This document shows, in pieces, positions 10,669 through 41,724 of a DNA stretch of 64,000 nt. Both the position numbers and the translations under genes were made by a program. Source of the DNA: Diacronema lutheri (taxonomy: Eukaryota; Haptophyta; Pavlovophyceae; Pavlovales; Pavlovaceae); the NCBI GenBank assembly GCA_019448385.1, contig JAGTXO010000003.1:186001-250000 (forward strand). Direction: 5' to 3'. How positions within the stretch are numbered: the stretch's first letter is position 1; each line of letters begins with the position of its first letter. The notes beneath the pieces were generated by a model that was given only the letters and a program-made list of their open reading frames with translations, searched no databases and had not been told where the DNA came from.

Positions 10669-11076
10669 GTTGTATAGATGGTCAAGCCAAATCCGATCAG
10701 GGGCACGATCGCGCCCCGAGTGCAGCGCGGGCCGTTCGGAAGGACGTCCTTGTGAGGGAGCTCTTCGCGTTTGGCGAGCGGGGGAGCACGACGCGCAGCG
10801 TTGCTGCGGCGGCGTGCGGGCGGCGAGCAGCGGTCGGGCTGCTCGCGACGAGGCCGGAGCAGACGGCGCCGTGGCCGCCGGCGCAGGTGACGCGCGCCGA
10901 CGAGCCGTAGCGAGCGTCCGTGATCCGCACGGCGGTTGGAGCGGGCCGGCTGGTGCGGCGCGCTCGGCCACGGGTGGCGGCGTGCACGGTCGTGCCGCGC
11001 GCGGCACGCGTCGCCAGCCGCGCGCGACCTGGGCAGAGCCCGCAAAGCGTCGACCGCTGCGCGGCTCGGCCGTGCG
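10669..11076 (-). other. 3' flank of the Fanzor-containing gene; candidate omega-RNA region
   Basis: About 400 bp lie between the stop codon at 11077 and the 38-bp repeat. No convincing open frame fits here. From family knowledge, Fanzor guide RNAs derive from the region overlapping or following the 3' end of the nuclease gene, up to the element end. I cannot fold or align it here, so this is a positional inference only. Confidence 0.3.
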
Positions 11077-14000
11077 TCAACGCCGGCCGCGCTTCGGCCC
11101 GCGCGCGCTGCCGCCGCCGGCACTGGCGCTGGCAGCTCCGCGGGCGGGGGTGCGGGCGCGAGAGCCGCCGCCGCCACCGCCGCCGCGCCCGCCGCCGTCG
11201 TCGCCACCGCCGTCGCCGCCGCCGCCTCCCCCGCCGTCATCGTCGTCGTCGCCGCCGCCGCCTCCGTCGCCGTCGCCGTCGCCGTCGCCCTCGCCGCCGC
11301 CGCCGTCGCCGCTGCCATCGTCGTCGTCGTCGTCGTCGCCCTCGTCGTCGCCCTCGTCGTCGCCGTCGCACTCGTCGTCGCAGTCGTCGCCCTCGCCGTG
11401 CACCATGCGCTCCTCACGCTCCCACACCTCGCCGCGCGCCCACCAGGCGAGCACGAGGGCAAAGCGCTCAGGCGTCGACGTGGTGTCGCGCCCGGCCGCG
11501 TGCGCCGCCATGTCGTGCACGTCGTAGAAGATGTTGCGCGCGGCGTTGTAGTCGCGGTGCACGGGCTTCTTGCCGCCGTTGCACGCCGGGCAGATGACGA
11601 GCGCGTGCACCGTGCGCGTGCCGCCCTTTGCCACGGGCAGGCGCGGGTTCTGCGCGAGCTCCGCGCCGCAGCGCTGCAGCCTGCCGCCCTTGGCGAGCCG
11701 CGGCATCGAGCAGTGCATCGACGTGTACGGCTCGGGCACGAAGACGGCCGCGACGCCGCGCCGCCGCAGCTCGCGCAGCAGCCCCACCTGGAAGGCGGGC
11801 GGCGCGCCCTTGGGCTGCGCGCCCTTGTGGTCGCGCAGCCACTTGCCCACGCACACGAGCAGCCGGTCGCGCGTCACGCCGTCGACACAGTGCGCCGCGA
11901 TGAGCGCCTCGGCGACGCGCGCCGCGTTGGACCGCCCGCCGCTGTCGCGCCGCCAGCGCTCCTTCCGGCGCGCCGGCGCGTCGTACACGTGCTCGGCGGC
12001 GCGCTCGCGCACCCGCGCGCTCTCGCGGTGGAAGGCGTGGAACTCGCCCTCGCCGAGCACCTTGGCGCTGTGCGCCTCGCCAAGCCGCGCCTCGTCCGCC
12101 TCCACGCTGAACTCCTCGCCGCGCCCGTCCTTGCGCACGCGCCGCCGCGCCGCGTTGGTCTTGGCCGTCTCGCGCGCAAAGCCCGCGGCGCGCGCGCGCG
12201 CGCGCTGCGTGAACTGCCGCCAGACGGCCGCCCGCCCGACGTGCGCAGAGTAGGTGGTGATGTTGCCCATGTTCGGGTCGGCCGCGACGACGACCGCCGC
12301 CTCGACGTCGATCGCCCGCCGCAGCTCGGAGCCGAGCGCGACGGCGATGCGCCCGTCCGGCCGGCGCCAGCGGTGCAGGACGCCCGAGCCGCCGGCCGGC
12401 GCCTGCGCCTTCGGCACGAGGACGGTCCCGACGGCGTGCACGGCGACGCCATCTGTCACCACCGACTTGACGGGCTGCCGGCCCGGGAGCGGCACGCGCG
12501 GCAGCGGCGCGAGGCCAACCCACGAGCGCCGCGCGTGCCACGGCAGATCGGCCGGCGGCCGCTCGCGCCCGGCGTAGTCGAAGACGCGGTTGGAGATGTC
12601 GAAGCGCGTCGCAAAGACCGCGTACCTGACGCGCACGTCCGACATCGGCGGGGTGTTGCCGTTTGTGCCTGTCCACTTGATCGGCTCGCCATCGTGGTCG
12701 CGCAGGTCCAGCGCCTTGAGCCGCGCGCGCAGCTCCTTGCGCTCGTCATCCGAAAGCGTCACCCAGATGGCGCTCGCGGCGAAGCGCACGTTGCGCGGCA
12801 CCTGCGCGCAGCGCGCGGCGCGCGAGCGCGCGGGCGCGTGACCAACCTGGCCGCGGGGCGGCGCGCACGGCGGCGGCGCGCGCGCGCTTGGGCCCTCGGC
12901 GGCGGCAGCGGCAGCCACGCCTCGCGCGCACATTGTGCGTGCGCAGCGGCGCCACATTGTACCGCGGCGGCCGTCCGGTCAGCTGCGTGTGGATGTGCGC
13001 GAGCCGGCAGAGCAGCGCCTGCCCCTCGGCCACGTGCTGCAGGGTGCGGATCTGCACGAGGAAGTAGCGCGTCGTGTGCCGGTCGTAGTTCCACCTTTTC
13101 GTGGGCGTGCACTTGTAGTCGATCTTGTGGAGGACCATGTCGGGCAGGTGGCGGTCGAGCGCGGCGGGGCAGCCGACGCGCGCGCCCTCCACGTCGCCGC
13201 GCAGCAGCCGCTCGCACAGCTCGCGCACGCGCGCGTTTCGCTGCATCTCGGGCAGCGCGACGAGCGCCTCGTCGCGCTCGACTGCCGCGCGGACGACGTC
13301 GCGGAGCAGCCCGTTCACGACGCGCGATGGATGCATCAGGCACGCGGTGGACACCTGCGTCGCCTCCGCCTCGAGGATCTCCGTGAGGCCCACCGCGCAG
13401 ACGGGCTGGACGCCCTCGGCCATCTCGCCGACGGCGCGCGCCGTCGCCGCCTTGGTCTGCGCGGCGGCTTGCTCGGCGGGCTTGCCTCGGGGCGCTGCAC
13501 CGTACGTGCTCTCGTCCTTGTGCCAGCCGATGGCCGAGAAGATCGCACGGACGGTTCCCTTGTCCATCGTGGTCGACGTGTGCACGCTGGTCGACGGGCC
13601 GCCCGACGCCGCGCCGACGGCCTGCGCGCTCGCCACCGCAGCCTCGTCGCGCACCACCTTGTTGATGACGCGGTACGCCTGTGTCGTGAGCCTGTGCACG
13701 GCCGCCGCGATGCGCCGCAGCTCCTTCCGCGCACCGGGCTGCGCCGTCACCGCCTGCGGCCCCGCGTTGAGCGTCGAGCGCTTGACCACGAAGCCCGGGA
13801 GCACGCTGCCGCGCGTGCGCGCCGTCGCGCCGCCGGCGGCGCGCGCGCTCGGCGCAGCGGGCTCGTCCACGCGCGCGCGCTCGACGCCGCGCGCGCGGGG
13901 AACGCTCGGCGCGCGCGCGCCCGCGGCGTCGCGCGCGCTCGCGGCGGCACCCGCCGCGGCGCGCTTGCCCGCGGCGCCCGACTCGCCGTGCGCGCGAAGC

Positions 14001-17000
14001 GGCGCCGACGCCAATGCCGACGCCGCGCCCGCGCCGCCGCTGCCGCTGCCCGATACGCCCGCGCGCCGCTTCTGCTCGTCGCGCGTCTTGCGGAACTGGG
14101 CGACGAGGTCGCTGCTCACGTTGGCCTCAGGCTCCCACGTGTCGGCGCTCTCGTCGTAGCCCCGCCACCTGATCCGGAACTGGAACGTCACCTTCTTGCC
14201 CGCCTTGCGGCGCTCGTCGACGACCGCCTCGACCTCGTACGTGCGCGCCTCCTCGTCGACGCTCGCGCCCGCCGCGCTCGCGCCCGTGTCCGGCCACCCA
14301 GCGACCGTGCCGCCCAGCCTCTCGGCGGCCGCGCGCAGCTGCCGCTCGCGCTGGGCGGCCGCGGCGCCTCGCGCGACCAGCGCGGGCAGCATGCCCGCGC
14401 CGCCCGCGAGGCCGTGCGCGCCGACGCTGGCGGTCATCAGCGCGTCGAGGCACGCGAACGTTGCGAGCGCACGCGCGCCATCGTCGCCGCCGCGCGGCTG
14501 CGAGCGCACGACGGGCGATGGCCGCGGCTCCCCCTCGGCCGCGAGCAGCGGCCAGATCGCACTGGCCAGCGCGACGGCATGCGCGCCGACCGCGACGGCC
14601 ACGTCCGCGTCGAGCGGCGCAAAGTCGTAGCGCACGAGCGCGGCCGGGCGCGAGTCGTCCGTCGGCCGGTCGGCGACGAGCAGCCCGACCGGGCGCGGCG
14701 GCTCGCCGGACGGCGCGGCGACGGGCACGCAGAGGAGCACGACGAGCAGGCGCGGCGTGCCGCCGAGCAGCGCGCGCGCGGCATCCGCCCCGTCGGCTCC
14801 GCCGCGCGCGGCCGCGGCGAGCAGCTCGGCCGCGCGCGTCGGGCCCAGCGCCGTGCGCGCGTCCTTGCGCGCGCGTGCGCGGGCCGTGTACGCGGCGCAG
14901 GCGTCGTCGAGCACCGCCGCGCTGGGCGCGGTGCCAGTCGTCGCCCACGCGCGCAGCGCGTCGCGCACCCGCGTGACGATCGCCTGGTCGACCGCCGCCT
15001 CGCCGGCAGCGTGCGCCGGCGCGCACGCCGGCGGTGCGGCGGCAGGCGCGAGCGCGGGCGCGCCGTCGGCGCCGTCAACGCCGACGGCGCCGTCGGCGCG
15101 CCGCCACGCGAGCTTCGCCTCGATCTGCTGCCGGACGGCGTGGCAGTGCCGGTCGATGCCGCGCGCGTCGTCGAGCGCGGCCAGCGCGTCCTCAGCGGCG
15201 GGACGGCCGCTCGCGTCCGCGACGGCCTGCAGGCAGAGCAGCGCGGCCGCACGCGCGTTGCACGCGCTCTGCGGCTCGGGCGCGAGCGCGAGCTCGAGCT
15301 CGAGCGGCGACGCGCCTCGCGCCGCGGCGATCGCGTCCATCAGCACGTCCAACCGCTGCACCAGCGCCCTGTGCGCGTCGCGCGGCGCGCCCGTCGACGG
15401 CGCGCGCGAGCGCGTCGCCACGAGCCCGAGCGCGCGCGCCGGCGCGCCCGCCGGCGTGTGCAGCACGAGCAGCGCCGCGCCCGCCAAGCTCGCGTTGCGC
15501 GTGACGAGCGCGAAGATGCGCGTCGCCTCGTGCGCGCCCACCGACGCCCAGATCGCAGCGCGATCGGCGTCCGTCTGCGCGTCGCACAGGTCGCGCACGT
15601 CGTCCGGCGCGAGCAGCGCGCCGCCGCCGGCGGAGCGCGCGACGATCGCCCGCGCCTCCGCCACGAAGACGGCCTGCGGCAGGTCGGCGTGGCGCGCGTC
15701 GACGATGGCGCGCGTCGCGTGCACGCCGAGCTCCACGCCGCGGTAGAAGGCGCGCGCGTTGGCCGCGCGCGCGTGCGCCGGCCGTCCGTCCGCGTTGCGC
15801 CTCGCGCGCGCCTGCTTGCTCGTGCGCGCGAGGCCGTCGCGTGGCGGTGGCGGCAGCGTGGCGAGGAAGCGCGCGGCGGGCGGCGGCGCGCGCACGCCGC
15901 GCTGCCGCCGTGCGATGGCCGCGAGCCGCCGGCCCGCCGCGCTGCCGCCCGCGCCGACGTGCTGCCGGCGGCCGAGCGCCGCCGGTGGCGGCGGCGGCGG
16001 CGGCGCGGCGGCGGGCGGCGGCGCGACGGCGGGCGGCGGCGCGGCGGCGGGCGGCGGCGCGGCGGTGGGCGGCGGCGCGGCGGCGGGCGGCGGCGCGGCG
16101 GCGGGCGGCAGCGGCGGCGGCGCGGCGGCGACGGCAGCACCAGTCGGCTTGTCCGCCCACGCACCCGAGACTCTGTCCCAGACCTTGCCCCATGGCGCGC
16201 GCCCACGCGGCCGCGCGAACTGCCCCGGCTCGAGCGCCTGGCCGCGCTTGGCGGCGGCGGCGGCGGCAGGGGGCGGGCGGCCGGCGCGCCAGTCGAAGAC
16301 AGGTGCAACCGTGGCGGCAGGCGCCGAGTGCCGCGCGTCGGTCACAGAGCGCGTGGTGCGCGCGGCGACCGTGGCACGCCTGGCGGGCGGGCGGTGAGCA
16401 GCGCCCGCCGGCGCGCCGGCGGGCGCGGCCGCCTCGAGCCCGGCGGAGGCGCCGCGCTTGCGCTTGCGCGTGCCGCCGCGCGTGCGCCTGCGCGCGCGCC
16501 CGCCGCGCGCCCGTTCGGCCTGCGCGTCGCCAGCCGCGTCGCCGGCCGCGTCGCCGCGCCGCACGTAGACGACCGCGAACGCCTCCTCGCCGGTCCCGTC
16601 GACGCCGCCGCGCGCGCGGCGCAGGACCGACCGCCACTGCAGCCGCCGCGCGCGGCCGGGCTCGCACGCAAACCAGCGCCCACCGCGCCTGACGACGGCC
16701 ACAAAGTCGTCGTCGCGCCGCCCGCGCCGGCGCGTGCGCAGCAGCACGCACTGCACGTCGAGCCAGCCCTCGTGCCAGTCGGCCGTGCTGGGGGCGACGC
16801 GAATCGACTGCGGGAGCTCGACGCCAAAGCCGGCGAGCCGCACGATGTGCGCGACGATGACGCTCGAAATGGCGGGGGCGCTCGACGGGTCGCCCGCTGC
16901 AGCGAGCACCGCCCCGCCCCAGTGCTCACGCGTGACGCAATCCGCGTCCTCGACGTGCACGTGCGCCACGCTCGCGCCGAGCTGGTGCAGCAACGCGCAG

Positions 17001-20000
17001 ATGTCGGCGTCGACCGTCCTCTCCTCCTCGGCCGCCTCGGCCGTGCCGCGGGCGGCGGCGTCGCCTGCCGGCTGCCCGAGGTACGCGATCGCCCGCTCGA
17101 CGGCCGCGCGCTCCGCACGCGCTGCGCTGTCGATCGCCGCATTGCCGACGGGCGCGCGCAGCGCCGCGATCGCGTCTTGCAACGCCGTCGCGTCGCCCGT
17201 CGCCGCCGTCGCCGCCACCGCCGCCGCGCTCGCGGTGCCGTGCGCGACGGCGTGCAGCGCGGCGGCGCGCGCGGCGGGGATGCGCCCGTCCAGCGCGAGC
17301 ACGAGCGGCGGCCCGGCCGGCGTCTGCTGCCGCCGGTGCCGCCGGCTCGCAGCCGGGTGGTCGGCGCGCGCGCGCTCGAGCCGCGCGCGCCGCTCGACGA
17401 CGCGCGCCCAGAAGGCCTGCACCCTCGGCTGCGCGAATGCAAGCCAGCCGACGCCGCGCGTCACGACGTGCACGACGATCCGGTCCTCGTGCCTGAGGTA
17501 CTGCACGTAGAGCGCTTTGCGCACGCCGAGGACGTGCATGCCGAGCTGCAGCTGATCGCGGTGCGGCTGCGGCGGCCCGTCCTCGTGCGCCTTGGCGTCC
17601 GCCTTGGTGAGCGTCTTCACCTCGACGAGGACCTGCTCGTTGTCTTCGGGGAGGATGGCGAGCCCGTCCGGCGAGAAGGCGAACGGCGCGCTCTTGTCGT
17701 GCGGGTCCGCACGCACCATCGGCAGGTTGCACACGACGGTGATGCCGTACGCGGCCGCCAGCTTGCGCAGCGCGACGGCCTCGCCGAGGATGCCCGCGGT
17801 CGTCGCCTTGGTCCGCACCTCGCGCCGCCGCCGGTGCACGTACTCGTCGGTGAGCGTCTCGTGCGCGACGCCGGCGTTGTCGTTCACGACGTCGCCAACC
17901 TTGCTGCCCGTGACCTCCTCCCATCGCTCGTCGTGCCAGCGCGGGCTGCGCTGCGCGGGCGCGCCCGCGCCGACGGCGTCGAGCACGCGGCGCAGCGCTG
18001 TGCCGTCGGGCGCAGCAGGCACGCGCGCGCGGTCCTGGGCCTCGCGAGCGTCGAGGACGCAGCCCGTAGTGGAATCTTGGGGTAGGTCGAGCTTGCTCGC
18101 CTCGCCGTAGCGGCTCTCCAGCTGGCGCGGTGCGTCGGCAGGGCCGCCGTCCGTGCGCGCACCCGACGCGCCCGCCAGTGCACGGGGCGCAGCGTCCGAG
18201 GCGCCCGCCGCGCCCGCGCCGCCGCCAATCGCGCCAGCGCACGCGCGCGCCGCGACCTGCGGACGGCCAGCCGCAGGGACCTCGTCCGCTCGGCCGGCCG
18301 CTGCGTCGGCCGTCCGCTTGGCCACCTCGCGCACGTCTCCGAGCGCGAGCGTGGCTGGCGCCGTCGAGCTCCCGTGGCGTTTGTTCCAAAACTCGAGCAG
18401 CCCGCCAAGGAAGGGCGTGCCCGTCGGGCGGTCCTCGGGCACCTCCGCCAGGATCGCGTCGACGCGCAGCGCGGCCGCCACATCGCAAAACGCGCGCGCG
18501 GCGCGCGCCATCCGCTCGGCGCGCGCGCCGCCGTCGTCCGCCGCGCGGCGGATGGCGTGGCTCACGTGCGCGACGCGGAGCGAGACGACGGCGTGCGCCG
18601 GCGCGTCGGCGCCCGTGCCGAGCGTGTGCCGCCGGATGGCCAGCTGCCCATCGCCCATGCGCGGCGGGAGCGACGCGCACGCCGCGACGGTCGTCTTGCC
18701 GGCCGCGCTGTCGCACAGCCAGCTCGCCTCGCCGCCGCCCGCAAACTCAAAGGTCGCGAAGCCCTCGCGGCCGAAAAGCGCGACGAAGTGGTCGAGCACC
18801 GCCTTGTTGATCGCGCGCGCCGCCGGCCGCGTCGATGCGCCGCGGGCAGCGCCACCCGCCGCGCCGCGCGCATCGCTGCACGTCGCAGGGCAGGTGCAGC
18901 CGGACGCGCGCACGCCGTCCGACCGCGTCCGCGGCAGCTCGAGCTCGCGCACCTTGGGGCAGAACCAGAGCGGGTTGGACGCCTCGAGGCACAGCACGAC
19001 GAGCCGCCCGTCCGTGCCGGCCAGCGCGCGCGCGTCGCGCAGCAGCTCGACGGCGAGCTCGGACGTCGCCGCGTGCACCGCCGGCTCGCCCGTCGCGCGG
19101 TCGGGCGGGAAGAGGCCGCCGCCGACGAGCGGGCTGGGGCAGCGGCCGAGCATCACGAGCAGCGGCGGCGGCGGCGTCTGCGGCGCCTGCTGCCCGACCG
19201 CAGCCGCCGTCAGCCCGGCCAGGTCGGAGCTCGTGCGGAGGGCCTTGAGCGCGACGCGCGAGCCGGTGCCCGCCTGCTCGGAAAACGTGGCGAGCATGGC
19301 GCACGTGCTCGCCCTCGCGCCGCACTGCCAGCTGACGCGCGCGAGGAGGCCTTCCAGCGTGTCGTTTTCGCGCGGCCGCGTGACCGCGTCGAGCGCCGCC
19401 GGGCCGAGCTGGAGGCTGCCGGGCGTGACGCACAGCACCGCCTCGTGGTAGGCGCGCAGCAGCTCCCTCGGCAGCTGCTCGGCGGGCGTCGCCGCCTGCC
19501 CGCCCACCCACCGTGCACCGTGGCCGCCGTCGCCCGCGCCCGCGAGCCGGACCGCCGGCCCGCCCGTGATCGCCGAGGTCGGTGGCGTGCCGAGCGCGTC
19601 GACGAGCGCGCGCACGGGCGCGACACGCCTGCGCGCAGCGTCCGCGCCGACGGCGAGCGCGGCGATCTGAGCGCCCTCCCATGCGCGCTCCCTCGCGTCG
19701 TCCCGCGCGGCCGCCGGCGCGGCGCCCGGCCGCGCGCCGTGCGGCACCGCGCACGCCGCCGCGACGACCTCCGCGCGCGCGCCGGCGGCGTCGGGCGCGT
19801 GCAGCTGCGCGAGCGCGCCAAAGAGCGCGGCGGCCGAGCGGTAGCGGCCGTGCGCCGCGACGAGCGCGTAGAGCACGCGCAGCGCGGCCACGCCCGCCTG
19901 GTCGGGCGCGTCGCCAGCGATTTGCTCGACCTCCCACGTGCGCGTGGGCGGCGGGCTGCCGTCAGCCGGGTCCGGACGCAGCGCCCACGCGCGCTCGACG

Positions 20001-21652
20001 ATCGCGTTGAACACGCCGTGCGCGGCGCCCTCGTCAAACTCGGCGGCGCCCGCCGCGTGCGCGCACCACCCGTGCACGCGCGACGTGGGCGCGTCCACGG
20101 CGCGCTGCATGACGAGCACCGCCGGCCGGTCGACGCAGCCGAGGCTCACCGCCGCGTGCTTGCCCTCGAGCAGCGCCGCCGCCGCAGCCTCGACCAAGGC
20201 GTCATCAGGCGCGTCGCCGACGACGACGGCACAGCCGTCGCCGTACTCGGCCTGCATCGCGGCGACGCACGACGCGACAAAGTCGCCGCCCGCGGCCGCC
20301 GCGTGTCGCGCCGCCAGCATCCGGCGCGCGATGGCAAGCCAGACGTACTCGGCCGGCGCGCGCGCGGCGCGCGCGCGAGGCGCGCCGGCCGCGCCGCGTG
20401 CGCCCGCGCGTGCGCCTCCAGCGGCCGCAACGGCCGAGGCGGCTGGAGCGGCGGTGAGCGTGCGCCGCGCGCGCTTCGCCGGCCGCGTGATGGGCGATGC
20501 ACCCGCCGTCGCACCGCCCGCAGCAGCCGGTGCGGCCGCCACAGCGCCCGCCGCGACGCCACTCGTCACGACGCCCGTGGCGGGCGGCGCGGCGGCGGAC
20601 GTGGCCGCCTCGACGGGCGTCGCGCAACTACCGCCAGCGGTCGCGGACGCGCCCGGCGACGCGTCGGCGAGGAGGTGGCGCAGCACGCCGCGCGCGAGCG
20701 CGACTCGCACGGCGAGCGTCAGCGCGCGCAGGCGGTCGGAAGGCGAGGCGTCGCGCTCGGCGTCGGCGGACGTGGCGGCAGCAGGCGGGGCGGCGGGCGG
20801 CGCGGCGGCGGACCGGGCGGCCGCCGGCGCAACCTCGTCGGCCTTGGCCAGCCAGACGAGCCCGGCGACTGCGAGCACGACGCTGTACGCGCCGACATCG
20901 TCACCCGCAACGCGCGCCAGCCGGGCGTGGGCGTCGGCCTCGGACACGGCGACGCGGAAGAGCACGTCGTCGCGGGCAGCTTGCTCGGCAAACTGACGCA
21001 GCTGCTTGGCCATCGTCACGCCGGCGACGGACGCCTCGCCCGCCTCTGCCTCGACCTGCTCGTCCTGGCCGATGGCGGACGCGCCGGCCTCGGCGCCACC
21101 GTCGAGTGTCCGGCGGCGCTCGAGGGCAAAGCCACGCACACAGACGCTCTGGAGGCCGCCGAGCGCGCCCGCCTTTTCGTGCAGCGCGCACGACAGCTCG
21201 ACCACCGAGTCCACGCGCCTCGCGGCGGCGCCCCCCCGCTCGCCGCGCGTGGCCGCGCGCACGACGAACACCGTGAATTGCGCGCGCTTCGCCGCGCGCG
21301 CCGACGCGCACGCGTGCTTCAGGAGCCGGCAAAGCGCGGGCCTTTGCGCCGCTGCGCCCCGCGTGCACAGCAGCAGTTGGCCGCGCTCGTCGCCCAGCTC
21401 CTGCTCGACGGCGGCCTCGAGCGCGTCGTCCGTCAAATCGCCGTGCTCCGTCGAGGCGAGCGCGCGCGCAGCCGCGAGCGCCAGCTCGCCTGCGTCCGCG
21501 CGCCGCCGGCGGCGCGCACCGGCGGGCGCGTGCGGCGCCGACGCGTGTGACGACGCCGCCGCGTCCGCGCGCGCACACGCGGCGCGCAACGCCTCACGCG
21601 CCGAGGCGGCCGCGCGCGCCCTGGGCGCGAGCTTCAAGAACGTGCGCGCGGC

Positions 21653-21725
<73 letters not shown>

Positions 21726-24700
21726 TCGCCCGCGTCGCCGGCCGGCGGCGGCGGTGGCGGCGGTGGCGGCGCGGCCACGGCGGCGGCAGCAGCGGCGGCG
21801 GCGGCGGTGGCGGCGGCGGCGGCGCCCAGCGCGGGCGGCGGCGGCGTGGCGGCGGCGGTGGCGGCGGCGGTGACGCCAGCGGCGGCCTTGGCGCCGCGCG
21901 TCTGCGGCGGCGTTTCGGCGCCATCGGGGCTGCCCCCGCCGCGCACCGCGCTCGTGACCGCGCAGACGCCGCCCGGCGCACGATCGCCGGCCGCGCCGGT
22001 CAGCGCGACGCGGAGGCGCTCGCCGACAGCGTACATGTCCGCCACGCTGAACGTGCGCGGCGCGGACGAGCAGCCCGCCGCGGCGAGCGCGTCGTTGAGC
22101 GCGCCCACTATCGCGAGGCCGCACGTCGCGCCACGCTGCGCCGCCTCGTTGAGCAGCAGCGCGCGGCGCACGCGCGAAATGTCGAGACCCGCCGCGTGCA
22201 GCGTGGCAGTTATCGCCTTGGCGAGCATGAGCGCCTGCCTGCAGGGCGACGCGAGCGTGTCGACGAGCACCGCGTCGTAGCGATGCTCGCCCGCGCGCGC
22301 GACGCGCACAAGGCGCAACGCGGTGAAATGGCCGGAGGCGAGCTGCGCGCCGTCGTCACCGCCCGCGCCGCCGCGCTCGTCCGACGGGCTCCACACGCCG
22401 ATGACAGCCTGCGTTGTCGCCTCGCTGCGCAGGCGGTGCAGCAGCGCGGCGCGCTCGGCGTCGTCCTGAAACACCGCGGGTTGCGCGGCGAGCGGCACGT
22501 GGCAGACATGCCCGCCGCCGGCCTGCCCGTGCACGCGCAGCACGACCTCGCAGCACGCGTCGACGGTTGAGGCGAGCATGTCGCCGCTGGCGATGCGCTC
22601 CACCTCTGCCTGCGGGAGGCCGGCGCTCGCGGCGGCGGCGGCCAGCCGGCGCGCAGCCGCGTCGCCCGCCCACGCAAGCAGCGCCGAGTTGGCGGGTTGG
22701 AGGGGAAGCTCAAGGGCGGCTGGTTCGGTGGCGGTAGCCTCGTTGGCAACGGGCACGTTGGCGGTGCGCGCGTTGGCGGCGGGCGCGGCGGCGATGGCTG
22801 GTGGGGCGGAAGACGCGCCCGCGGCGGCGGGCGCGGACGCGGCAGCGGCAGCGGCTAGTGGGGCGGGGAAAACGCCGTCGGTGGCAGGCGCGGAGGCGAA
22901 TGCAGGAGCAACTAGTGGGGCGGGAAAATCGGCGGCAGGCGCGAAGGCGGATGCAGCAGCGGCTAGTGCGGCGGGGAAAACACCGTCGGCGGCAGGCGCG
23001 AAGGCGGATGCAGGAGCGCCCAGCGGGGCGCAGAAAACACCGTCGGCGGCAGGCGCGAAGGCGACAGCAGCAGCGGCCAGTGGAGCGGAGGCGCAGGGCC
23101 ACGCGCGCGCCAGCCGTGCAAGCCCAAGCCGCGCGCGAGCGACGCACGCGCCGATGGCCGAGGCGGCGGCGCAGGCCACGACGTGGCCTGGCACCGGTGT
23201 GGCCAGCCGCTCGCGGGTGTGCACGTCGAGCCGCGCCCCACGCCAAGAGCGGCGGCGCGCTGAACGGAGGCGCGCGACCCCGATCGATCCGCCCGCGCAC
23301 GCGCGCGCCGGCTCAGTGTGGCCAACGCGCGCCGCTATGCAAGGCGCGCGCGCGATAACGGCGGCTGTCGGCCGTGGCGTGCGCGTGGCGGCGCCGCGGC
23401 GACGGGCGCGGCACACGAGCCGCTCGGGCGCGCCGCCGCCGCGCGGCACGATGTCGAGCAGCACGGTCACGCCGCGCGCGCGCGCGACCGCCGTGCACGC
23501 GAGCCGCACGGGCAGCGGCGGCCCGTCCGGGCGCGCGAGCGCCGCCACCTCGGCGTCGGTGAGGCTGTGCAGCTCGCGGCGCGCGCGCGCGAACGCGGCG
23601 ATGTCCGCGCGCAGCTCCGCGTCCGTGCCGAGCGCGGCACGCGCGTGCACGGGGAGCGACGCGCGCAGCGCGTGGAGCACGCCGCCGCGCGCGCCGCGCG
23701 GCGCCGGCGCGCGCTCGCGCTCAGCGCGCGCGGCGCGCGTGAGCTCGCGCACCGCGCGCGCGAGATTGCGCCGCGCGGCCGCGACGGGAGGGCTAGGTGC
23801 GCGCGCGCGCCGGTTGTAGCGCGGCCGCGCCGAGTCGAGGGGCGGCGGACGCGGTGCGTACGCCGCGGCGCGGCCCGCGCGCCAAAAGGCCGGCGGCGGG
23901 CGCAGCTCCGTCGCGTCGACCGCGGCCGCGAGCGCGCCGAGCGCGGCGTCGCTGTCGCCCGCCGCGTCGGCCGCGTCGACGAGCACGAAGAGCGCGCCGA
24001 GCGCGCGCGACGCGGCCGCCTGCGCGGCGGTGGGGCGGGCGCAGGCAGCGACGCATGCGGCCGCCATGCCGCGCGCCGCGGCGAACGCCGGTGACGTGAC
24101 GGCCGCGCCGATGGCAACGGCGGCGGCGGCGACGGTGGAGGCGGCAGCGCCGGCGATGGAGTTGGCAGCGGCGGCGGCGCTTGCCATCGCGCGGCGCGCG
24201 AGACGCGAGGCGCCACCGACCGCCGCCGCCGCAGCGCGCGCTGCGCGCGCGCCGGTGGCGCGCATCGTCGCCGCGCCAGGCGCCGCCGCGCCGACGCCGC
24301 CGGCGCCCGCGCCGTCGCCGCTCTCGGCCGTGCAGGGCTCCGATGGCGAACCCGGCGTGCGCTGGCGCGTGATGCGCGCGCCGAGGCGCGCGCTCCGCGC
24401 CGCGCGGCCGGCGACGTCGAGGAAGCGCCGTGCGCGCGCCGCGCGCAGGCCACGCGCGCGCGGCGGCGCACCGACAGGCGCCGAGCGCCGCGGCGCGCAC
24501 GCCGGCGCGTCGCTGTCGGGTTGCGCAGCGCGCGCGCGGGAACTCGGCGCGGCGTGTGCGGGCGGCGGGCGCGCGCCCGCGCGGCGCAGAGGCGCGAGGC
24601 GCCGGCCGCAGACGAGGCGTGTGCGCAACCAGGACGGCGAGGGCCGCAGGGCGCCGTCGACGTCGCGCATCGGCGGGCCGCGAGCCCGCCGCGCAGCCGT

Positions 24701-27700
24701 GCGGCGCGCGCGAGGCGCTCGGCGGCGCGCGCGCCGCACGGCGCGCGCGGCGGCGCGCACGCCAGCGACGGCTGCGGCCACGCCGCGCGCCAACACGGCC
24801 GCGGCGTGCGCCATCGCACCGAGCACGGCGCGTGGCGCGCCGAGCAAGCGCAGCAAGCGCGACGCCGTCGCGCGCGCCGGCGCACCGTGTGCAGGGGCCT
24901 CGCCAGCGCCAGCACCGACGCCGCCATCGCCGCAGCCGCAGGTGGCGTCGCCGCCGCCGCAGGCGTCGCGACGGACGCCGCCGCCGCCGAAACAACCGCC
25001 GCACACGTCGCCGCCGACGTTGCCACCCCAGCCGCCGTTGCGTGCGCAGGTGGCTGCGGCGCGTGCGTGCGGGAGGCGTGCCGTGCGGCGCGCATCACAC
25101 GGGCTGCGCGACGCGAGCGACGCCGCCGGGGGCCCCGCTGCGCCAGGCGCGCCGTGCGCGCCAGCCTCGCCGGCCTCGCCGGCGCGCGGTCGCGCGCTCG
25201 CCTCGACGTGGCCGCCTCCGCCGCCATCGCCGCCGTCGAACCGGGCGGCGGAGGGCTGCCGCTCGAACCGCTCGTCGGCGTCGGCCGCCACCGCCGCCTC
25301 GCGCTCCGCCGCCGCGGCGGCCGCACGGCGCGCGTGGCGGAGCGCGCGGCCGCCGTCCGCTGCGCGGCGTGGCGGCGCGGGCGCGGGCTTCGGCGCGCGC
25401 GGCCCCTCGGCGCGCTCGCGGAGCACGGCGAGCGGCGTGCCCGTGGCGACGCTCGTGCAGACGCGCCGCAAGGCGGCGCTTACGCACGCGTGGACGACGC
25501 GCGCCGTCCGCTTGTCGGCGGCGCGCGCGGCGCGGCGCGCGGCCTTGGCGGCGGCCTTTTTGGCGCGCCTCTGCTCCGCCTGCTCCGACAGCGCGCGCGC
25601 CTGGCGCTCGGCTGCGAGCGCGTCCTCGGGCGAAACGGTCGGCCTCGGCGGCCGCGCGCGCGCGCTGCGACGCTGCGCGCTGCGGCGGTCGGACGGCGGC
25701 TGCCGCGGCGGCGAGGACGGCGAGCGCGAGCTCGGCGTGGGCGACCAATCGCCGCTGACGGTTGCGAGCGGCGCAAACGGGTTGTCGTCCCCGCGACCCG
25801 CGGCGTGCGACAGTGCACGCGGCGTCGGGCGCCGGCCGACCGCTGGCGGGCCCCACTCGGACGGCGGCTCCGAGGGCGAGCGCGCCGTCGGCGCCGCGCG
25901 TTGCGCGGCCGGCGGCGCCTCCCGGTCCAGCGCCGCCTGCTCTCTCGCCGCGGCCTGCTCGTCACCCTCCGGCACGCCACGCGGCGCGAGCACCGCGGTG
26001 GCGCAGCGCGTCGCGTTGAGCAACGCCGCCTCCATCTGCCGCACGCTGGCCTTGGCGCACGCCACACCCTGTCTCGCCCGGCGCAGCGCCTCGTGCGCGC
26101 GGCGCACTTCCGCGTCGGCATCTTCGCGCATGCCAAAGTGCGCCTGTTGCAGCCGCAGGTCCGCAGGGCGCCCCTGCGCGCGAGGGGCACGGGCGCGGCG
26201 GCGCGCAGGTGACGGAGCTGGCGCGCCGTTCTGCGCTGCGCGCACGCCAATCGACGGGCGCGCGCGCGGCGGGGCGCGCGCGCGCGCGCGCGCGCGCGCT
26301 GCCTACCCAGCCGCCGGCCGGCTCGCGCGAGCGCGCCAGCTGCTCCGCCGCCTCGGCGTCGAGCACGCGCTGCTGCGCCTCCTCCTCGCCCAGTGCAGCG
26401 AGGTGCAGCCGGCGGGCTGCCTTGCGGCAGTTGCCCTCCGCCTTGCCCACGGCCTTGCGCGCCGCGTCGACGGGGTCGTCGTTGGCTCTGGCGCGCCTGC
26501 GCTTGCCCTTGTCGGCGGGCGGCGGCTCGGCGCGCTGCAGCGTGCCGAGCGCGTCGTCGGCTCCGCGCGCGGCCGCCCGCGGGCGGCGGGCCCCAAAAAG
26601 CGCACCGGTCGCCGTGCGCGCCGCGCAAGCAACGACCAGCGCTGACATGCCGGCGAAGACCGCACCGCCCAGCGCCACGGTTGCCACGATGCGCAGCGTC
26701 CCGTGCGCAGGCCGCGCTGCCTCCGCCGCTTTGGCGGCCTCGCGCGCGCGCGCATCGGCGGCTCTCATCTCGTGCAGCAGCCCGGCCGCGCCGCTCGCGC
26801 CGTCGCGGCCGCGCGCGAGCTCGCACAGCACCGCCGCCGCGCGCCGCGTGGGCTCGCGCGCGAGCAGCTGCGCGCCGCCGTCGGGGCGCAGCTTCTCAAC
26901 GAACTCGACAAACGTCGCGTCGCGCCAGAGGGACATGCGGAAGGCCCTGTGCACCGCCCCCTCGTGCTCGCGCATCCGCCGTGCCGCCCGCCTGCCGTCG
27001 CGCGCGTGCGCGTGCGCGGCCGCGTCGACTCCCGCGACGCCGCGCTGCGCGTCGCGCGCGGCCGACGACGGCGCCGCCGCGCTGCCCGCCAAGGGCGCCG
27101 CAGCGGCGACGCGCGCGTGCGGAGCGACGGGATCGCCGGCGGCCGGCGGCTCGGCGCGCTGCGGCGTGCCGTTTGCTCCGCGCGCGGCCGTCCCGGGGGA
27201 GATGGCCGCGATGGCGCCGCCAGCCGCGCCGCGCGCCAGCCACGCGCATAGGCTGCCGACGAGCTCGCCGAGACCCCCGACGGTCGCCGCGGCGGCGAGT
27301 GCGCCGGGCTTGCCGGCCGACAGCGGCTCGCGAGCGTCGTCGTCGCAGCCGCCGGCACCCGTCTTGGCGAGTGCGTCGCGCTCGCCCTCGACGCCCGCCA
27401 CGACCGCCGCCCCTCCGTCGTCCGCCGCGCCGGCCGCGCGCGCGGCCGGGCGCAGAGGAGGCGTGCCGGTGCAGCCGTCGCCGCTCGTCTTCGCCGTTTC
27501 CTCCACTTTGGTCACTTCGTCGCCACCTGCGCCATCTCCGACGCCGGGGCCCTTGGTCACGCTTGCCGCCATGCGCGCCGTGCCCGCCGGCCAGCCCGCC
27601 GACTGCTCGAGCGCGGCGGCGAGCGGCGCGACGCGCGTCGACTCGGGCGCGCTCTCGTCATCGGGCTCGAGCGCGTTGTGCAGGCGCGCGAGCGCGCGCT

Positions 27701-29981
27701 CGACGGCCGCGGCGCCACTGCCGGGGGCGCGGCTCGCCGCGCGCACCGCGCGCCGCCAGGCCGGCGCGAACATGAGCGCCGGCTCGAGCGCCGCGAGCGC
27801 GCGCGCCTCGCGCGCGTCGCTCGCGCCGAGGCGCGGCGGCACGCGCGCGGCTCCGCGCGGCGCGGTGCCTCGGAAGCGTGGGCTCAGCGTGTAGGCGAGG
27901 TGCTGCGGCACGCCGCGCGCCTCCGCGCGCGCGCGTCCGTCCTCGACCTCGCGCCGCGCCTTCGCGATCGCCGGCGTGGCGCGCGCGAGCCAGTCGGGGT
28001 CGGCGGGCAGGTGGATCACGACGAGAATCGGCGCCCAGTCCAGCCGCGGGTTCTTGTGACGGTCGGGCACGACCCACACGAGCAGCACCGTGCCCTCCGC
28101 GCCGCACGCCGCCTCGTAGATCCTGGGCTGCGAGCGCCAATCGGGCCTGACGCGCAGCGCCCGCGCGTGGTCGATGGCGGCGGCGCGGTCGCCATTGAAG
28201 TGAACCGTCGTCACCTCGCCGATGACGGACCGGCCGGACCGCCAGCAGAACACCGCGTCCGCCGACCCGCCGGCGATGGCCGCGAGCGATTCGGGCGCGG
28301 CGAGCCGCGGCAAGCCCTCGAAGGCGGCAAAGTCCTCGTGCGCATTGTACACGCCGCCCCAGCCGTCGTGCGCGTACGCGCGCGCGGCCGCTCGTACCGC
28401 GCGCGGCTGGTTCTCCACGCCCGACGTCATGTGCCATGTCGTCCCCGCGAAGCCGGGCTCGCCCAGCTCGGCCCGCACGACGGTACCGTACCCCGCGCCC
28501 TGCGTCGGGGCGGCGAGGTGGTGCATGCCCGCGCCGGTCACGCCCTCCGTGCGCTGCCGCGTGACGATCGTGCCCGTCGCGTGCGCGAAAAGCGTGTCGA
28601 CCACGGCGGGCGCGCGCCCGCTGTTCGCCCGTAGCCGCGCCCTGCCCGCTTTTAGCTGCTCGGGGTCCTTGGCGTCGTACACGCGCGCGTCCGCGTCGCC
28701 CTCATCAGGCGCAGTGTAGACGCAGCGGCGTTCGAGCGGCGCCGAGCCACCGCCGTCCGCCGCCGCCGGCGAGGTTGGCGCCGCGCCCGCCGCCACCGCG
28801 CTCGTCGCCGCCGTGCCCGTCGCCACCGCCGCAGCCGCCGCGCCCGCGGGGTCGTCGTCCCCGTCCTCCGCGCCCTCCCCGTCGTCAGCGGTGGTGGCGT
28901 CGCCATCGTCCCCGTCGCCCTCGCCCCCGCCGAGGCTGCTGAATGGTCGGGGCCCCCACGCCGAGGCGGCGCGCCGCTGCGGCGCACGCGGCGGTGGCGC
29001 TCGCGACGGCGGCCTTGGCGCCGCCGCGCCGCGCGGCCTGGCCGCCGTCGACAGCGCGCGGCCTGCAGCGCCCGTGAGCGCGTCGAGCGCGGCCGTGCGT
29101 GCGATGCGGTCGTCGGGCGCGCGCAGCGCCGCCTCGACGGCCTGCAGCAGCCCGTCGGGCGCGGATCCGCCGACACTGGCATCGCACGCCTCGGCGAGCC
29201 GCGCGGCCTCGGCGAGCCGCGCGGCCTCGCGGGTGAACGGGCCGAAGCGCCTGGCGCGGTCGCCGAGCAGAGCGCCGATGGCGGCGCGGAGCGTGCGCGC
29301 GCGGGTCTCCTCGTACGCGGCCGTCGTGAGGCGCGCGAGGCGCGCGTCCAAAGCCTTCTTGATGTCGACAAGGACACTCGCGCGGCGGCCGTAGAGCGTC
29401 GATGCGCTCGCCACGACCTCGGCCGCGACTGTTGCCGCGGCGAAGCAACACGCGGCCCCACTCTGCGGGGGCGCCTTGAAGGCATCGATGGGCGGCGCTG
29501 TTCTGCCGATGCGCTGCGCAAGCTTCTTGATGAGCACGCCGGCCGCCGTGGCGTACGCCGATTCGCCGTTGCCCAAGGTGCGCGAATCGGCGAGCAGGGC
29601 GAGCGCGGCGCCGGGCGGCGCGCCGCGCTGCGCGGGCGGCGCGAGGAGCAGGTACGCCGCCGTCCAGTGCACGAGGCCGCTGGACGCGCGGAGGCAGAGC
29701 GGTAGCACGACCACGAGCACCTGCCCAAACCGGTCCGCATCCGCGCATGCTTTGCGCAGGTTGCGCAGCGCCACCTTGAGCGCATGCTGCGAGCACCCCG
29801 TGTCGCCCACCCTAACCCTGCTCGTGCCGAAATCCGCGTAACGCAGCAGGGCGATGAGGCAAGTGGATGGGACCACGTGGGGGTGGGTATCTCCCGGCGA
29901 CAGAATGGTGCTGAGGGCCAGCGAGAAACTGTCCGAGCCGCCCCGCCCGCCGGGCAAAGCGTCCTTCACGGAGTCCTCCAT
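11077..29981 (-). CDS. Giant multidomain protein: Ulp1-like peptidase, YqaJ nuclease, chromodomain, Fanzor
   Basis: Three exons are proposed: 29981-26307 (1,225 codons), 26173-12932 (4,414 codons) and 12801-11077 (574 codons plus stop), giving about 6,213 residues. Both introns (26306-26174, 133 bp, donor GTAGGC; 12931-12802, 130 bp, donor GTGCGC; both acceptors GCGCAG) are phase 0. They look like the introns of the host genes here. The second join restores the Fanzor core sequence YNVAPLRTHN|VPRNVRF. In order: C48-like peptidase (residues 60-190), TM segment near 1100-1125, coiled region, long Ala/Arg-rich stretch, second Ulp1-like domain, poly-Ala tract, further degenerate modules, YqaJ nuclease, Pro-rich repeats, chromodomain, Fanzor, acidic tail. 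Whether the product is one protein or is processed or made from internal starts is unknown. Long frames come cheaply at this GC, but motifs recur along its whole length. No transposase was recognised. Confidence 0.7.
11150..11410 (-). repeat. Acidic low-complexity tail of the Fanzor
   Basis: Imperfect GTC/GCC-type trinucleotide repeats on the plus strand encode a C-terminal tail of more than 80 residues almost wholly Asp, Gly and Glu. It lies after the last catalytic motif. It may be a real acidic tail or repeat-expanded 3' sequence kept open by chance. Confidence 0.8.
11500..13760 (-). other. Domain: Fanzor RNA-guided nuclease (eukaryotic TnpB homologue)
   Basis: The N-terminal helical part (from about 13735, LRRIAAAVHRLTTQAYRVIN) and the core YNVAPLRTHN|VPRNVRF flank the 130-bp intron. 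RuvC-I is VVVAADPNMGNI with Asp at 12277-12279. RuvC-II is VFVPEPYTSMHCS with Glu near 11731-11733. A four-Cys zinc finger spans 11710-11580 (last pair CPAC). RuvC-III is HRDYNAARNI with Asp at 11551-11553. All three acidic catalytic residues are present, so the nuclease may be active. Fanzors are guided by an omega RNA to DNA targets; those in eukaryotes are usually carried by transposons. Confidence 0.9.
14095..14245 (-). other. Domain: chromodomain
   Basis: Fifty residues beginning YEVEAVVDERR and continuing FQFRIRWRGYDESADTWEPE match the chromodomain fold: the first aromatic (Tyr), the RWRGY strand and the Trp-Glu-Pro motif that together form the methyl-lysine aromatic cage. Chromodomains guide some retrotransposon integrases to heterochromatin. 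Here one lies about 120-170 residues before the Fanzor N-terminal region in the same open frame. Confidence 0.88.
15985..16120 (-). repeat. Pro/Ala tandem repeat in the giant protein
   Basis: An imperfect repeat of about 18-24 bp (GGCGGCGGCGCGGCGGCGGG-like) encodes AAAPPP units repeated six or more times. It forms a flexible linker between the YqaJ side and the C-terminal half. Confidence 0.85.
17400..17960 (-). other. Domain: YqaJ / lambda-exonuclease-type recombinase nuclease
   Basis: All landmarks of the family appear in order. QRSPRWHDERWEEVTGSKVG is the N-terminal motif. GILGEAVALRKLA supplies the first acidic residue. AFSPDGLAI (about 17661-17675), LVEVKTLTK (about 17613-17624) and HRDQLQLGMHVLG complete the PD-(D/E)XK core. 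Such enzymes digest one strand of double-stranded DNA ends and feed single-strand annealing recombination in phages and some large DNA viruses. Location inside a Fanzor-containing protein is unexpected. Confidence 0.85.
21650..21725. repeat. GGC trinucleotide run encoding poly-Ala
   Basis: An almost pure run of GGC triplets on the plus strand encodes about 25 consecutive Ala on the minus strand, next to a poly-Pro stretch encoded at 21735-21765. Such a run is prone to slippage and copy-number change. Confidence 0.95.
22000..22720 (-). other. Domain: second Ulp1-like cysteine peptidase
   Basis: The stretch reads LASGHFTALRLVRV, then about 20 residues on AVLVDTLASP, then QRGATCGLAIVGALNDAL. 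This gives the His...Asp...Cys order and spacing of C48 peptidases, and it is the better-preserved of the two copies. It sits downstream of a 20-residue tandem repeat and upstream of a long poly-Ala tract. Confidence 0.6.
22830..23085 (-). repeat. Diverged tandem repeat of about 60 bp
   Basis: Five imperfect units encode a roughly 20-residue motif of the form SAFAPAADGVFPAPLAAAA, just before the second Ulp1-like domain. Units differ by several substitutions, so the expansion is older than the exact repeats elsewhere in the window. Confidence 0.85.
29382..29981 (-). other. Domain: N-terminal C48/Ulp1-like cysteine peptidase of the giant protein
   Basis: Residues 1-200. The order His, Asp, Cys fits the Ulp1 clan: LVHWTAAYLLL (His105), ALLADSRTLG (Asp132) and SGAACCFAAATVAAEVV (Cys178/179). 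The aromatic residue after the His and the hydrophobic strands around it are typical. Ulp1-type peptidases cleave SUMO-like proteins; they also occur in several eukaryotic DNA transposons. Overall identity to known members looks low, so activity is unproven. Confidence 0.55.
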
Positions 29982-32316
29982 CTGCAGACTGTGGGCACGT
30001 CAGTGTCCGGATGGCGGCCCGGATGATACTTGGGAGAATTTACATGATGCCCTGGAGAATGCCCCGCTCTCCCACAACCAGGACCCGCCAGCGCGCCGAG
30101 CCTACTCGTTTGCCCGCGCCGCCTCTCTTTGCGCGCCCGAGCGCGGCCTCCGAGCGCGGCCAACGTCCTCCGGGGGCGTGCATCGTGGCTGCTCGGAGGG
30201 GCTGCGACGCGGCGAAAGCTCGCTGCGCGGCCGCAACGTGAGCGCGCGCGCGCGGCCGCGCGCCGGCCTGCGCTGCTCTGCACGGCCGCGCGCCGGCCTG
30301 CGCAGCCTCGTCGCGCAGCGTGAGCGCGAGCGCGCGCGAGGTGAGCTCGGCGGATGGGTGCGCGGCGGCGTTGGCGGCGGGTGCGGCGGCAGGCTGGGCG
30401 GCGGGTTTGGACGGAGAGTGTCGGGGAAGAACGGGGCGCATCCTGGCTGGGAGTTGGACGGCGCCCACCACGCGCTGGCGGATCCTGGTTGCCACCACCA
30501 CCCCCCCCCCCCCCCCCGGAGACGAGGACCAGGGGCATGGCCGACTCGCTGCGCCGCACAGCGCGCGGCGCGCGGCATGCTGCGCGACCTCAAGCACATC
30601 CAGCCGCGCTCCGCCCACGCAACGCGCGCAATGCCGCGTTGCACTGCAGGTGTGCACGTGCGGCTCTCACGCGCACTGTGTTGCACGAACGGCATCACGC
30701 CACCGAGCTGCGTCCGGACCACGCGCCGCGCGCAGGCGTCCACACAGGGGCGCGCCGCGCCGCGCGTGCGCGCCCTCGCAACCGTTGCAGCACGCTCTGC
30801 CTTGCACTGCGCCGAGCCGCCGCGCGCTGTGCGCGTGCATGCAGGGCGCACGCGTGCGACGAAGCGCGCGCGCGGCGAGGCGCGCGGGCGGCTCGCTGCG
30901 CGGGCGGCAACGCGCCCAGCTGCGCCCAGGCCAGGCGCGCGCCCGCGAGTGCCACCGGGACGCACTGCCCCCGCCGGGGTCGCCGCGCGCTCTGTGTGTG
31001 CGCTCGCGCGCTGCGAGCGCGGCGGAACGTTCGTGCATGGCGCGAAGAGCGCGGCACCCGAAGACGGCTGCCCCGAGCCCGCGCCGGGTGGCAGCGAGCG
31101 GCGGCACCTCCTCGGCGAGCCCGCCCCGCGCCTTCCCCTCCACGTGGCGTTTTGAGGCAGACGGACACGCGCCCACACTGCGACTGGGCACGCTGCTCGA
31201 GGCAGACACGCACCCAACGCGCGCGCACCACGCGCCCGCGTCGGCGGGCCGGTGTGAACGAGCGAGAGCTCGGTGTCGCCAACGGGGGCACGGGCGCGAC
31301 TTCGGTCCGCCTCTCGACGGACGCAGGCGACGCTGCCGGGAACTTCCCCGACGCCTGCACATCCAGGGCTTCGAGGTACAGAGCTGGGCAACAGTGCCGC
31401 TCGTCACCGATGAGGCGGCCAAGCTCGCTATCCTTGCTGCCCTCGGCTCCACCAAACAGCCGGGCGACCCAACGGTTCGTGATCGCCTGGCCGCCAGGTG
31501 CGAACCGCGCCCGTGCAAGCGCTTCACCCGCATTCTCCGCCCCGCTGCGGACGTCCGCCTGCCGGCCGCGAACACGGCCGGTGCGCGTTGCCGCCTGGCC
31601 CAACACGAAAACCCGCCCGCCCCCGAGGCCGCAGGTCCTACCTGCCCAAGCGCAGCCCAACGGCACGCAGACAGCCCGCCTTGGCAACCGACTCGTGCGC
31701 GAGCGCTCCGCCCTCCACAAGAGCCTGCCCCACGCCACCGCCGACGCGGAGCCAGCGCAGCCGACGCCCCTCCGCGACGCTCGCGCCGCAAGGCGCAAGG
31801 GCCCCGGCGAGACGGCGTCAACCAAGCCCGCCGCTGGCACAGCGCCGGCACCCGGAGCCCACCCCAAGCCCCCGCGCACGCCTCGCCCCCCCCCCCCCCC
31901 CCCCCCCCCCCCCGATCGGCGGACCGATTGCGTTTTGGTGCGCCAGGCTCAATGCGCCATCGCAGTGGCGGGCCCGCAGACGCAGACGCTGACATGCCCA
32001 ACGCTGGGCACTGAGGCCGCAGGCCGGCCCTCCTGGACCTGGCGGGCGAGCTGCCCGCGCAGCGGCCACGCGAGCCTCGCACTGACCGTGGCGGTCGCTG
32101 CCACCGTGATAGCTGCGGGTGCGGCGGCCTTGGCCCCAACCCCATCATCCGTCTTCATCCCCGCCCTGCTCGCGCTCGCGGCCTACGTCGGCAATCCCTG
32201 CACCGGGATCCGCCCCGCGAAGTCCACACAAGACTTATCCGTGCTGCACGCCAGCCGCGCGCGCCGACGCGCGCCGCTCCCACACGCTCACCTCCGTTTC
32301 CGCGGGCGGCCCAACG

Positions 32317-32355
<39 letters not shown>

Positions 32356-32604
32356 CCCCCCCCCCCCCCCCCCGGCAGGCGGCCATCGAGCCGCATTAGC
32401 ACACCCGCCCGGGGCCTCCCGCCGCACCCGCAGCGGCTCGGCGCCTTGAATCCTCCCGTCCCCCGGGGTGAGGCCTTCAACCCGGGCCCAGCGCGCTCCG
32501 ACTGCCTCACGCGCGCCAGCGCCAACCTCGGCGGCATGGTAGACCCCGAGCGAAAAGCCGCACTTCTCGCCGTCCTCGTCAGGCGCAAGTACGTTATCCT
32601 GCTC
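29982..32604. other. 2.6-kb stretch without a confident gene
   Basis: Several open frames exist on both strands but none shows a recognisable domain. Plus-strand patches that look protein-like are 31380-31500 (PLVTDEAAKLAILAALGSTK) and 32060-32220 (a hydrophobic segment, LALTVAVAATVIAAGAAALA). C-homopolymers lie before each possible acceptor (30506-30520, 31886-31913, 32317-32373). A decayed or multi-exon plus-strand gene is possible. On the minus strand, CCACAGTCTGCAG directly precedes ATG 29981, so that ATG could also be an internal exon start. Confidence 0.35.
32317..32373. repeat. 57-base C-homopolymer with one T
   Basis: Thirty-six C, one T, then twenty C on the plus strand. It is the longest C tract in the window and a likely site of length error or instability. 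The sequence GGCAG follows directly, as it would at a 3' splice site. Confidence 0.95.
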
Positions 32605-38761: not shown

Positions 38762-38842
38762 GGCGCGCACGACGTCGCCCAGCCAGAGCAGCCCGGGGCG
38801 GGGCGAGTCCGGCTGCGCGGAGGTCCGGCTCGAGCGGGCGGG

Positions 38843-40976: not shown

Positions 40977-41009
<33 letters not shown>

Positions 41010-41681: not shown

Positions 41682-41724
41682 TCTCAGCCTTACACTGGCC
41701 GGACCAGCCCGGACCGCGCCCTAT

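Follow-up and report, generated by a model that had tools for sequence, protein, structure and literature searches.

The window, a 64,000-nucleotide stretch of the Diacronema lutheri genome (C4:186001-250000; assembly of 43,492,796 bp in 103 contigs), carries a giant gene on its minus strand. This gene is part of a 31-kb high-copy mobile element, denoted element A, a setting with a broken Helitron-type helicase that was missed by the earlier note. Host genes flank the element: to its left are genes for kinase-PP2C and TPR proteins, and to its right those for CSE1, for an FMN oxidoreductase, and for an ankyrin-RING protein. The features discussed are listed here in window coordinates, except for the last.

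10672..41727, minus strand: complete copy of element A of about 31.06 kb, oriented with the gene 5′ end right and 3′ end left, delimited by copy alignments and junctions
11077..12801, minus strand: exon 3 of the giant gene, the RuvC and zinc-finger (TNB) part of a Fanzor
12802..12931, minus strand: probable intron 2 of 130 bp with GT..AG ends, shortened by 2 bp in several other copies
12932..26173, minus strand: exon 2 of the giant gene, 4,414 aa inside a 4,518-aa open frame
14087..14239, minus strand: chromodomain, Pfam PF00385, E 5.7e-12, 45.8 bits against a cut-off of 25.1
17387..17962, minus strand: RecE / lambda-exonuclease-like nuclease domain, P0002 residues 2781-2972, PHROG_434 E 2.1e-15
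22118..22330, minus strand: Ulp1-like His-Asp-Gln-Cys motif 2, spacing found by regular expression
26174..26306, minus strand: junction 1, a GT..AG intron of 133 bp or a coding (GC)n tract, whose length varies among copies
26307..29981, minus strand: exon 1 of the giant gene, open frame, 1,225 aa counted from the first Met
29445..29669, minus strand: Ulp1-like His-Asp-Gln-Cys motif 1, spacing found by regular expression, without profile match
33884..34150, minus strand: UCH-like (ubiquitin hydrolase) stretch, PF00443 E 6.1e-8, covering the first 100 of 254 profile positions
36260..37353, minus strand: Helitron-type PIF1 helicase remnant with parts in different frames, PF05970 E 1.8e-24 and 3.7e-14 in two frames
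38858..39729, no strand: two related inverted-repeat units, inverse match 90.7% over 878 bp, with GTGTAGG-type subrepeats
41664..41681, no strand: 18-bp perfect palindrome GTACGACCCGGGTCGTAC at a distance of 46 nt from the element 5′ end; palindromes of the same length also occur inside the element
C4:712937-734422: copy of subfamily A2, 21.5 kb, with ends common to element A

The three minus-strand open frames of the earlier note are present at 25962-29999 (1,345 aa), 12746-26302 (4,518 aa, P0002), and 11077-12978 (633 aa, P0003), and so are the two phase-0 GT..AG joins of 133 and 130 bp, at 26306-26174 and 12931-12802. Translated from the Met at 29981, the predicted joined product comes by arithmetic to about 6,213 aa. 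An open frame alone is weak evidence at this locus because the DNA has a GC content of 75–83% and the strand opposite exon 2 is also open over long stretches, for 1,747 and 1,154 codons. The genome copies keep the exon-2 frame open, which argues that the giant gene is more than chance. A 321-aa slice of exon 2 is 98–100% identical in 124 scored copies, out of 244 candidates in the genome, and holds no stop codon in any of the 124. The frame around it reaches at least 4,000 codons in 96 copies, with a maximum of 5,753; it is shorter than 4,000 in the other 28 and shorter than 3,000 in 15. Among the compared copies, indels or indel clusters in exon 2 add up to multiples of three; only the copy at C4:9299 departs from this, by an insertion of 1 bp at 19368. 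Self-BLAST of joined exons 1 and 2 gave no internal repeat at E≤0.05. A coding unit of very large size is supported, one that carries a RecE-like nuclease and a chromodomain and ends in an exon with a Fanzor part.

The nuclease and the chromodomain both lie in exon 2. The nuclease region also matches the lambda-exonuclease family TIGR03033 (E 7.9e-6, under the curated cut-off) and Pfam YqaJ (E 0.017, under its cut-off), and contains SPDGL...VEVK...QLQ, which we take to be PD-(D/E)xK nuclease residues. No relative of P0002 residues 2250-3250 was found among 1,405 scored candidates. In exon 3, the Fanzor/TnpB zinc finger (TNB, PF07282) matches at 11530-11769 with E 2e-6 and 28.3 bits (cut-off 26.3), and NCBIfam guided_TnpB gives E 0.027 and 13.8 bits (cut-off 100). 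The candidate catalytic residues of P0003, D234, N236, E416, and D476, stand in the same order as D383, N385, E541, and D606 of SpuFz1 in the available part of PMC10432273. The Fanzor motif, described in the extract of PMC3627910 as D, E, D with a [TS][TS] pair preceding the zinc finger and RD following it, appears in P0003 as D234, E416, TS419-420 before the finger, and RD475-476 after it, all kept in the relative P0011 (45% identity). N236 matches SpuFz1 N385 and is absent from P0011, which keeps D, E, and D. Two relatives of exon 3 were found among 8,000 scored candidates; the two database proteins cover exon 3 alone, and both are gene calls on contigs shorter than 2.5 kb. No close solved relative of the exon-3 Fanzor was found in the PDB, three queries found no relatives in IMG/VR, and the AlphaFold model of exon 3 (pLDDT 36.4) is unusable.

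A Fanzor as the C-terminal module, as the earlier note had it, is supported by profile in exon 3, while its N-terminal WED/REC half was not matched at the end of exon 2. Exon 3 has only ~174 residues before the first aspartate, against 382 before D383 of SpuFz1 (PMC10432273, in part), so the N-terminal half must come from elsewhere and is most likely the end of exon 2. That end matches neither the PDB Fanzors, which are too distant for comparison, nor the Fanzor of a second mobile family, family B (score 80, with 26 of 200 shuffles as good), which is too divergent for testing junction 2. The proposal that the second join rebuilds conserved Fanzor sequence is therefore left without independent support. 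Because the profile-supported Fanzor part is in exon 3, the link between the giant gene and the Fanzor depends on this junction. It is out of frame in both observed tract states, and seven frame-keeping GT..AG pairs of 100–160 bp are available. The frames that hold the 148 Fanzor matches of the genome are all too short for exon 2, the longest being 1,779 codons with a family B score, and P0011 begins just where exon 3 does, a start that may reflect the gene caller's choice. On this comparison of copies and relatives, junction 2 is probably an intron. The observation of the earlier note largely holds, with the joining of the Fanzor to the very large coding unit likely.

Junction 1 permits two readings. 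The GT..AG join exists; however, the GC tract within it is 2 bp longer in the C4:9299 and C75 copies, so a coding microsatellite fits as well. In C4:9299, exons 1 and 2 form one frame of 3,752 codons until a later frameshift. In C75, the frame through the nuclease slice has 5,753 codons, as many as exons 1 and 2 should have when joined, and judged from tract length and frame length the two exons are probably read through. In the window copy, they are out of frame with each other. Junction 1 is thus an intron, in which tract length is irrelevant, or a coding microsatellite, and exons 1 and 2 belong to one gene either way.

Peptidases of the Ulp1 type, which had been proposed to process the product as a polyprotein, fare less well. 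No Pfam Ulp1/C48 match was found at E≤10, a search in which HMMER filters discard many weak matches, and what is present is the His-Asp-Gln-Cys spacing at two places. Foldseek on one of these stretches (motif 2; AlphaFold2 model with pLDDT 47.8) found no match at E≤0.001. Comparison of five supposed peptidase stretches by MAFFT and of two by BLAST gave no credible alignment. With no peptidase profile match and no known cleavage site, processing by peptidases of its own finds no support.

Element A has constant ends and is present in more than 100 copies. Five other loci on C71, C4, C3, C5, and C2 align with the window from the left end at ~90–100% identity by piece, those on C5 and C3 being more diverged; BLAST alignments start at 10666-10672, and by eye at the same base. 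For each element end, 40 scored places have 100% identity, out of 272 candidates for one end and 280 for the other. The Fanzor zinc finger has 148 matches in the genome (150 scored of 306 candidates), and 117 of these score 30.5–31.5 bits, the window copy scoring 31.3. The junctions of 21 copies read N, then CTATATA[C/G]GGCGCGG...GACCATCTATAC, then N, and their flanks are for the most part unrelated; five copies lack the first C, one has a variant 5′ end, and one an unreadable 3′ end. A target duplication, of 13 bp, occurs in one of 20 readable flank pairs and the other 19 have no common word of at least 7 bp, although left-right pairs of 31-kb copies may be misjoined because the repeat exceeds the read N50 (23.5 kb for the PacBio subreads, according to the accessible text of PMC8379373). 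Seven flank pairs that belong by coordinates to the 21.5-kb class are also without a target duplication of at least 7 bp.

CTATATA at the 5′ junction was considered as a target motif or TAM and rejected as element-borne, since CGTTAGTCTATATA (five places) and CTTAGTCTATATA (one place) adjoin element ends. One place of each is an inspected junction, three agree by arithmetic, and C69:1150957 is only plausible; the empty repeat sequence is CGTTAGTATA. As CTATATA belongs to the element, no target motif is demonstrated. Several copies have a short repeat, CTAACGGCGCTTACGTCAGGACAGCGGGGTCA, at their 5′ junction or close to it, and entered this repeat at a similar position (TTAGT); it is seen at window 10630-10669, in L015 around 2060, and in L031 and L037. 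Many contigs (C1, C6, C12, C26, C29, and others) begin or end at or very near an element A end. Telomeric insertion was considered for contigs starting at element ends, and the pattern was judged an assembly effect; element A probably limits this assembly.

The UCH-like stretch and the helicase remnant are upstream of the giant gene on the same strand. Against the PDB, the helicase remnant matches Helraiser at 4e-25 and PIF1 at 6.2e-6. A viral SSB was considered for the stretch before the helicase and had no support, with no Pfam match. The inverted-repeat units at 38858-39729 are probably nested MITE-like insertions. On the plus strand, 39653-41609 at the element 5′ end holds weak open frames with no family match; subfamilies A1 and A2 have 99.5% identity here and differ by 5–10% in the adjacent stretch. 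The 3′ side of the element has a palindrome of 12 bp at most, and asymmetric terminal inverted repeats of the Helitron2 type fall short of significance, as 102 of 300 shuffles score equally well. Pfam scans of the 33 longer open frames of element A, taken from both strands, gave no match to a transposase, integrase, recombinase, reverse transcriptase, or Rep. The Rep (HUH) domain PF14214 (Helitron_like_N) has one match in the whole genome, on C63 and outside element A. This sole match, at C63:35738-36019 and its surroundings (L053), is a broken Helitron Rep. No guide RNA was found: the element 3′ end has no Rfam match, and its fold signal is weak (z −1.5, with 8 of 200 shuffles as good). Helitron descent of element A (31 kb; A2 21.5 kb) is probable.

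The best explanation, to which we give an even chance, is that element A is a giant Helitron-descended, Fanzor-bearing transposon that was recently amplified and that the giant gene works for the element. Helitron descent and single-stranded or break-repair movement are suggested by the helicase type, by target duplications being absent as a rule, and by the Fanzor1 proteins already known from Helitron2 elements (extract of PMC3627910). Element A would thus spread by a single-stranded, rolling-circle-like, or break-repair route and not by a cut-and-paste DDE transposase, with the initiating Rep enzyme supplied in trans or no longer needed. That a RecE-like exonuclease is predicted in one chain with the Fanzor hints at empty sites being cut and then resected for copying. 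The Fanzor may make these cuts with a guide RNA from the element 3′ end, resection by the exonuclease would let the element be copied into the break, and the chromodomain may tether the giant protein to chromatin. Against the best explanation stand the lack of a Rep/HUH domain, of significant terminal repeats, and of a guide RNA in the searches above, the 5′ motif that turned out to belong to the element, the 28 copies whose frames fall below 4,000 codons, the Fanzor without a close solved relative, the concentration of the synonymous excess described below, and the missing excess in exon 3 and in the nuclease slice. A stronger form, that element A moves without a classical transposase and that the giant Fanzor-RecE-chromodomain protein itself makes and processes the break that receives the element copy, is unlikely; if true, transposase-free movement took a 31-kb element to more than 100 copies within 43 Mb of genome.

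The main rival to this holds the giant gene to be a passenger of a very young burst: element A would be a plain non-autonomous Helitron derivative moved entirely in trans, and the giant gene captured cargo with no part in movement, open by recency only. This is possible and less probable than a working gene. It fits the 98–100% identity of the exon-2 slice, the helicase broken in the window copy, and the Rep missing in cis. It also fits exon 1, where four copies compared with the window sum to 4 synonymous and 28 nonsynonymous changes, and the parts without a synonymous excess, namely exon 3 between A1 and A2 (1 synonymous and 8 nonsynonymous, n=9) and the nuclease slice of another subfamily, where purifying selection was not seen (8 nonsynonymous, 0 synonymous). 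However, A2 has exchanged the N-terminal part of the giant gene for a different sequence of roughly 800 codons and yet retains a single frame of 4,193 codons, and its identity to A1 is 97.6% over three quarters of exon 2, at the C-terminal side. Exon 2 also has 91 differences that are fixed between A1 and A2, 39 of them synonymous and 52 nonsynonymous, whereas the same changes placed at random give 21.4 and 68.6 (P 3.8e-5); the two other frames of this DNA give P 0.88 and 1.0. Of the 91 differences, 86 fall within 20500-22600 (37 synonymous, 49 nonsynonymous, P 1.9e-4). The exon-2 indels between the subfamilies are net multiples of three by cluster, and an indel in intron 2 is of 2 bp. The helicase and UCH frames are unconstrained, with no synonymous excess between A1 and A2.

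It is doubtful that exons 1, 2, and 3 are instead separate genes, translated apart from internal starts with no 6,200-residue product. In favour of separate genes, the exon-2 frame has 28 Met codons, exons 1 and 2 are out of frame in the window copy, and the two database proteins cover exon 3 alone, though both are gene calls on contigs shorter than 2.5 kb. The Met codons leave residues 3971-4246 of the exon-2 frame Met-free, and the chromodomain, at 4022-4072, falls inside this stretch. The continuous exon 1 and 2 frame in C4:9299, and that in C75 as read from tract and frame length, speak against separation, and with ~174 residues before the RuvC aspartate, exon 3 alone would be a truncated Fanzor.

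An integrated virus or Polinton-like element is very improbable. Large DNA viruses often carry RecE-like exonucleases and motifs of peptidase type. Fanzors occur in algal viruses according to the excerpt of PMC3627910. However, the 33 open frames have no capsid, packaging ATPase, DNA polymerase (PolB), or integrase against Pfam, the three IMG/VR queries have no relatives, and the ends lack long terminal inverted repeats. Segmental or subtelomeric duplication, suggested by the contigs that begin or end with an element A copy, is the least probable reading, given constant ends against mostly unrelated flanks in 21 copies, a window copy between host genes, and contig breaks that are expected at a 31-kb repeat with a subread N50 of 23.5 kb (PMC8379373, in part).

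Fanzors are studied as stand-alone RNA-guided nucleases. Element A resembles Fanzor1 systems such as SpuFz1 in its RuvC-like D, N, E, and D in order with a zinc finger, and in a Fanzor part that adjoins the element 3′ end, where the guide RNA lies in known systems; in contrast to SpuFz1, its Fanzor is predicted downstream of a chromodomain, a RecE-like nuclease, and thousands more residues (comparison with the available text of PMC10432273). According to the extract of PMC3627910, Fanzor1 proteins occur in non-autonomous Helitron2 elements, whose full-length 5′ ends are without target duplications and whose other, mostly truncated copies have duplications of 7–19 bp, which the one 13-bp duplication of element A resembles. 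The Chlamydomonas elements CRe-1, 2, and 3 described there (Bao and Jurka 2013) are likewise non-autonomous, Fanzor-encoding, and present in many copies, with no target duplication at full 5′ ends and variable ones in most other copies. They differ in that the Fanzor is the protein described, whereas that of element A is the end of a giant fused gene in 31 kb, and in that element A has no significant terminal repeats and no TTTT-type target was seen (same extract). Compared with Helitrons and Helraiser, element A has a helicase remnant that best matches Helraiser and, as a rule, no target duplication; unlike them, it has no Rep domain found, a frame-broken helicase, and ends that are not TC...CTRR. 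It shares a size class of tens of kilobases with giant transposons (Polintons, Terminons, and long Helitrons), from which it differs by a single reading frame of up to 5,753 codons and by its Fanzor, which the available portion of PMC6431247 does not mention.

The earlier note knew of no described system with this combination, and none appears in the open-access literature among the matches listed. New here are the predicted giant fusion and its size, as Fanzor-bearing and Helitron-type elements were already known. Element A offers a predicted fusion of a Fanzor with a resection nuclease and a chromatin reader, in a very young high-copy element of a cultured alga, and the giant gene is extreme in coding unit size for a transposon. 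RNA-seq was made for this alga, in which LTR and LINE elements make up 36.5% of masked bases (both from the part of PMC8379373 at hand), and element A probably accounts for part of the repeats outside these two classes. The role of a Fanzor for its transposon becomes directly testable in this alga.

The second mobile family, B, is unrelated and also ends in a Fanzor, with 25–30% identity to exon 3, and is represented at eight loci (L001-L008). A further locus, L050 (C69:649001-659000), has a family B Fanzor frame of 1,681 codons. Among the 148 Fanzor matches, 31 score unlike element A, and about 14 of these resemble family B by score.
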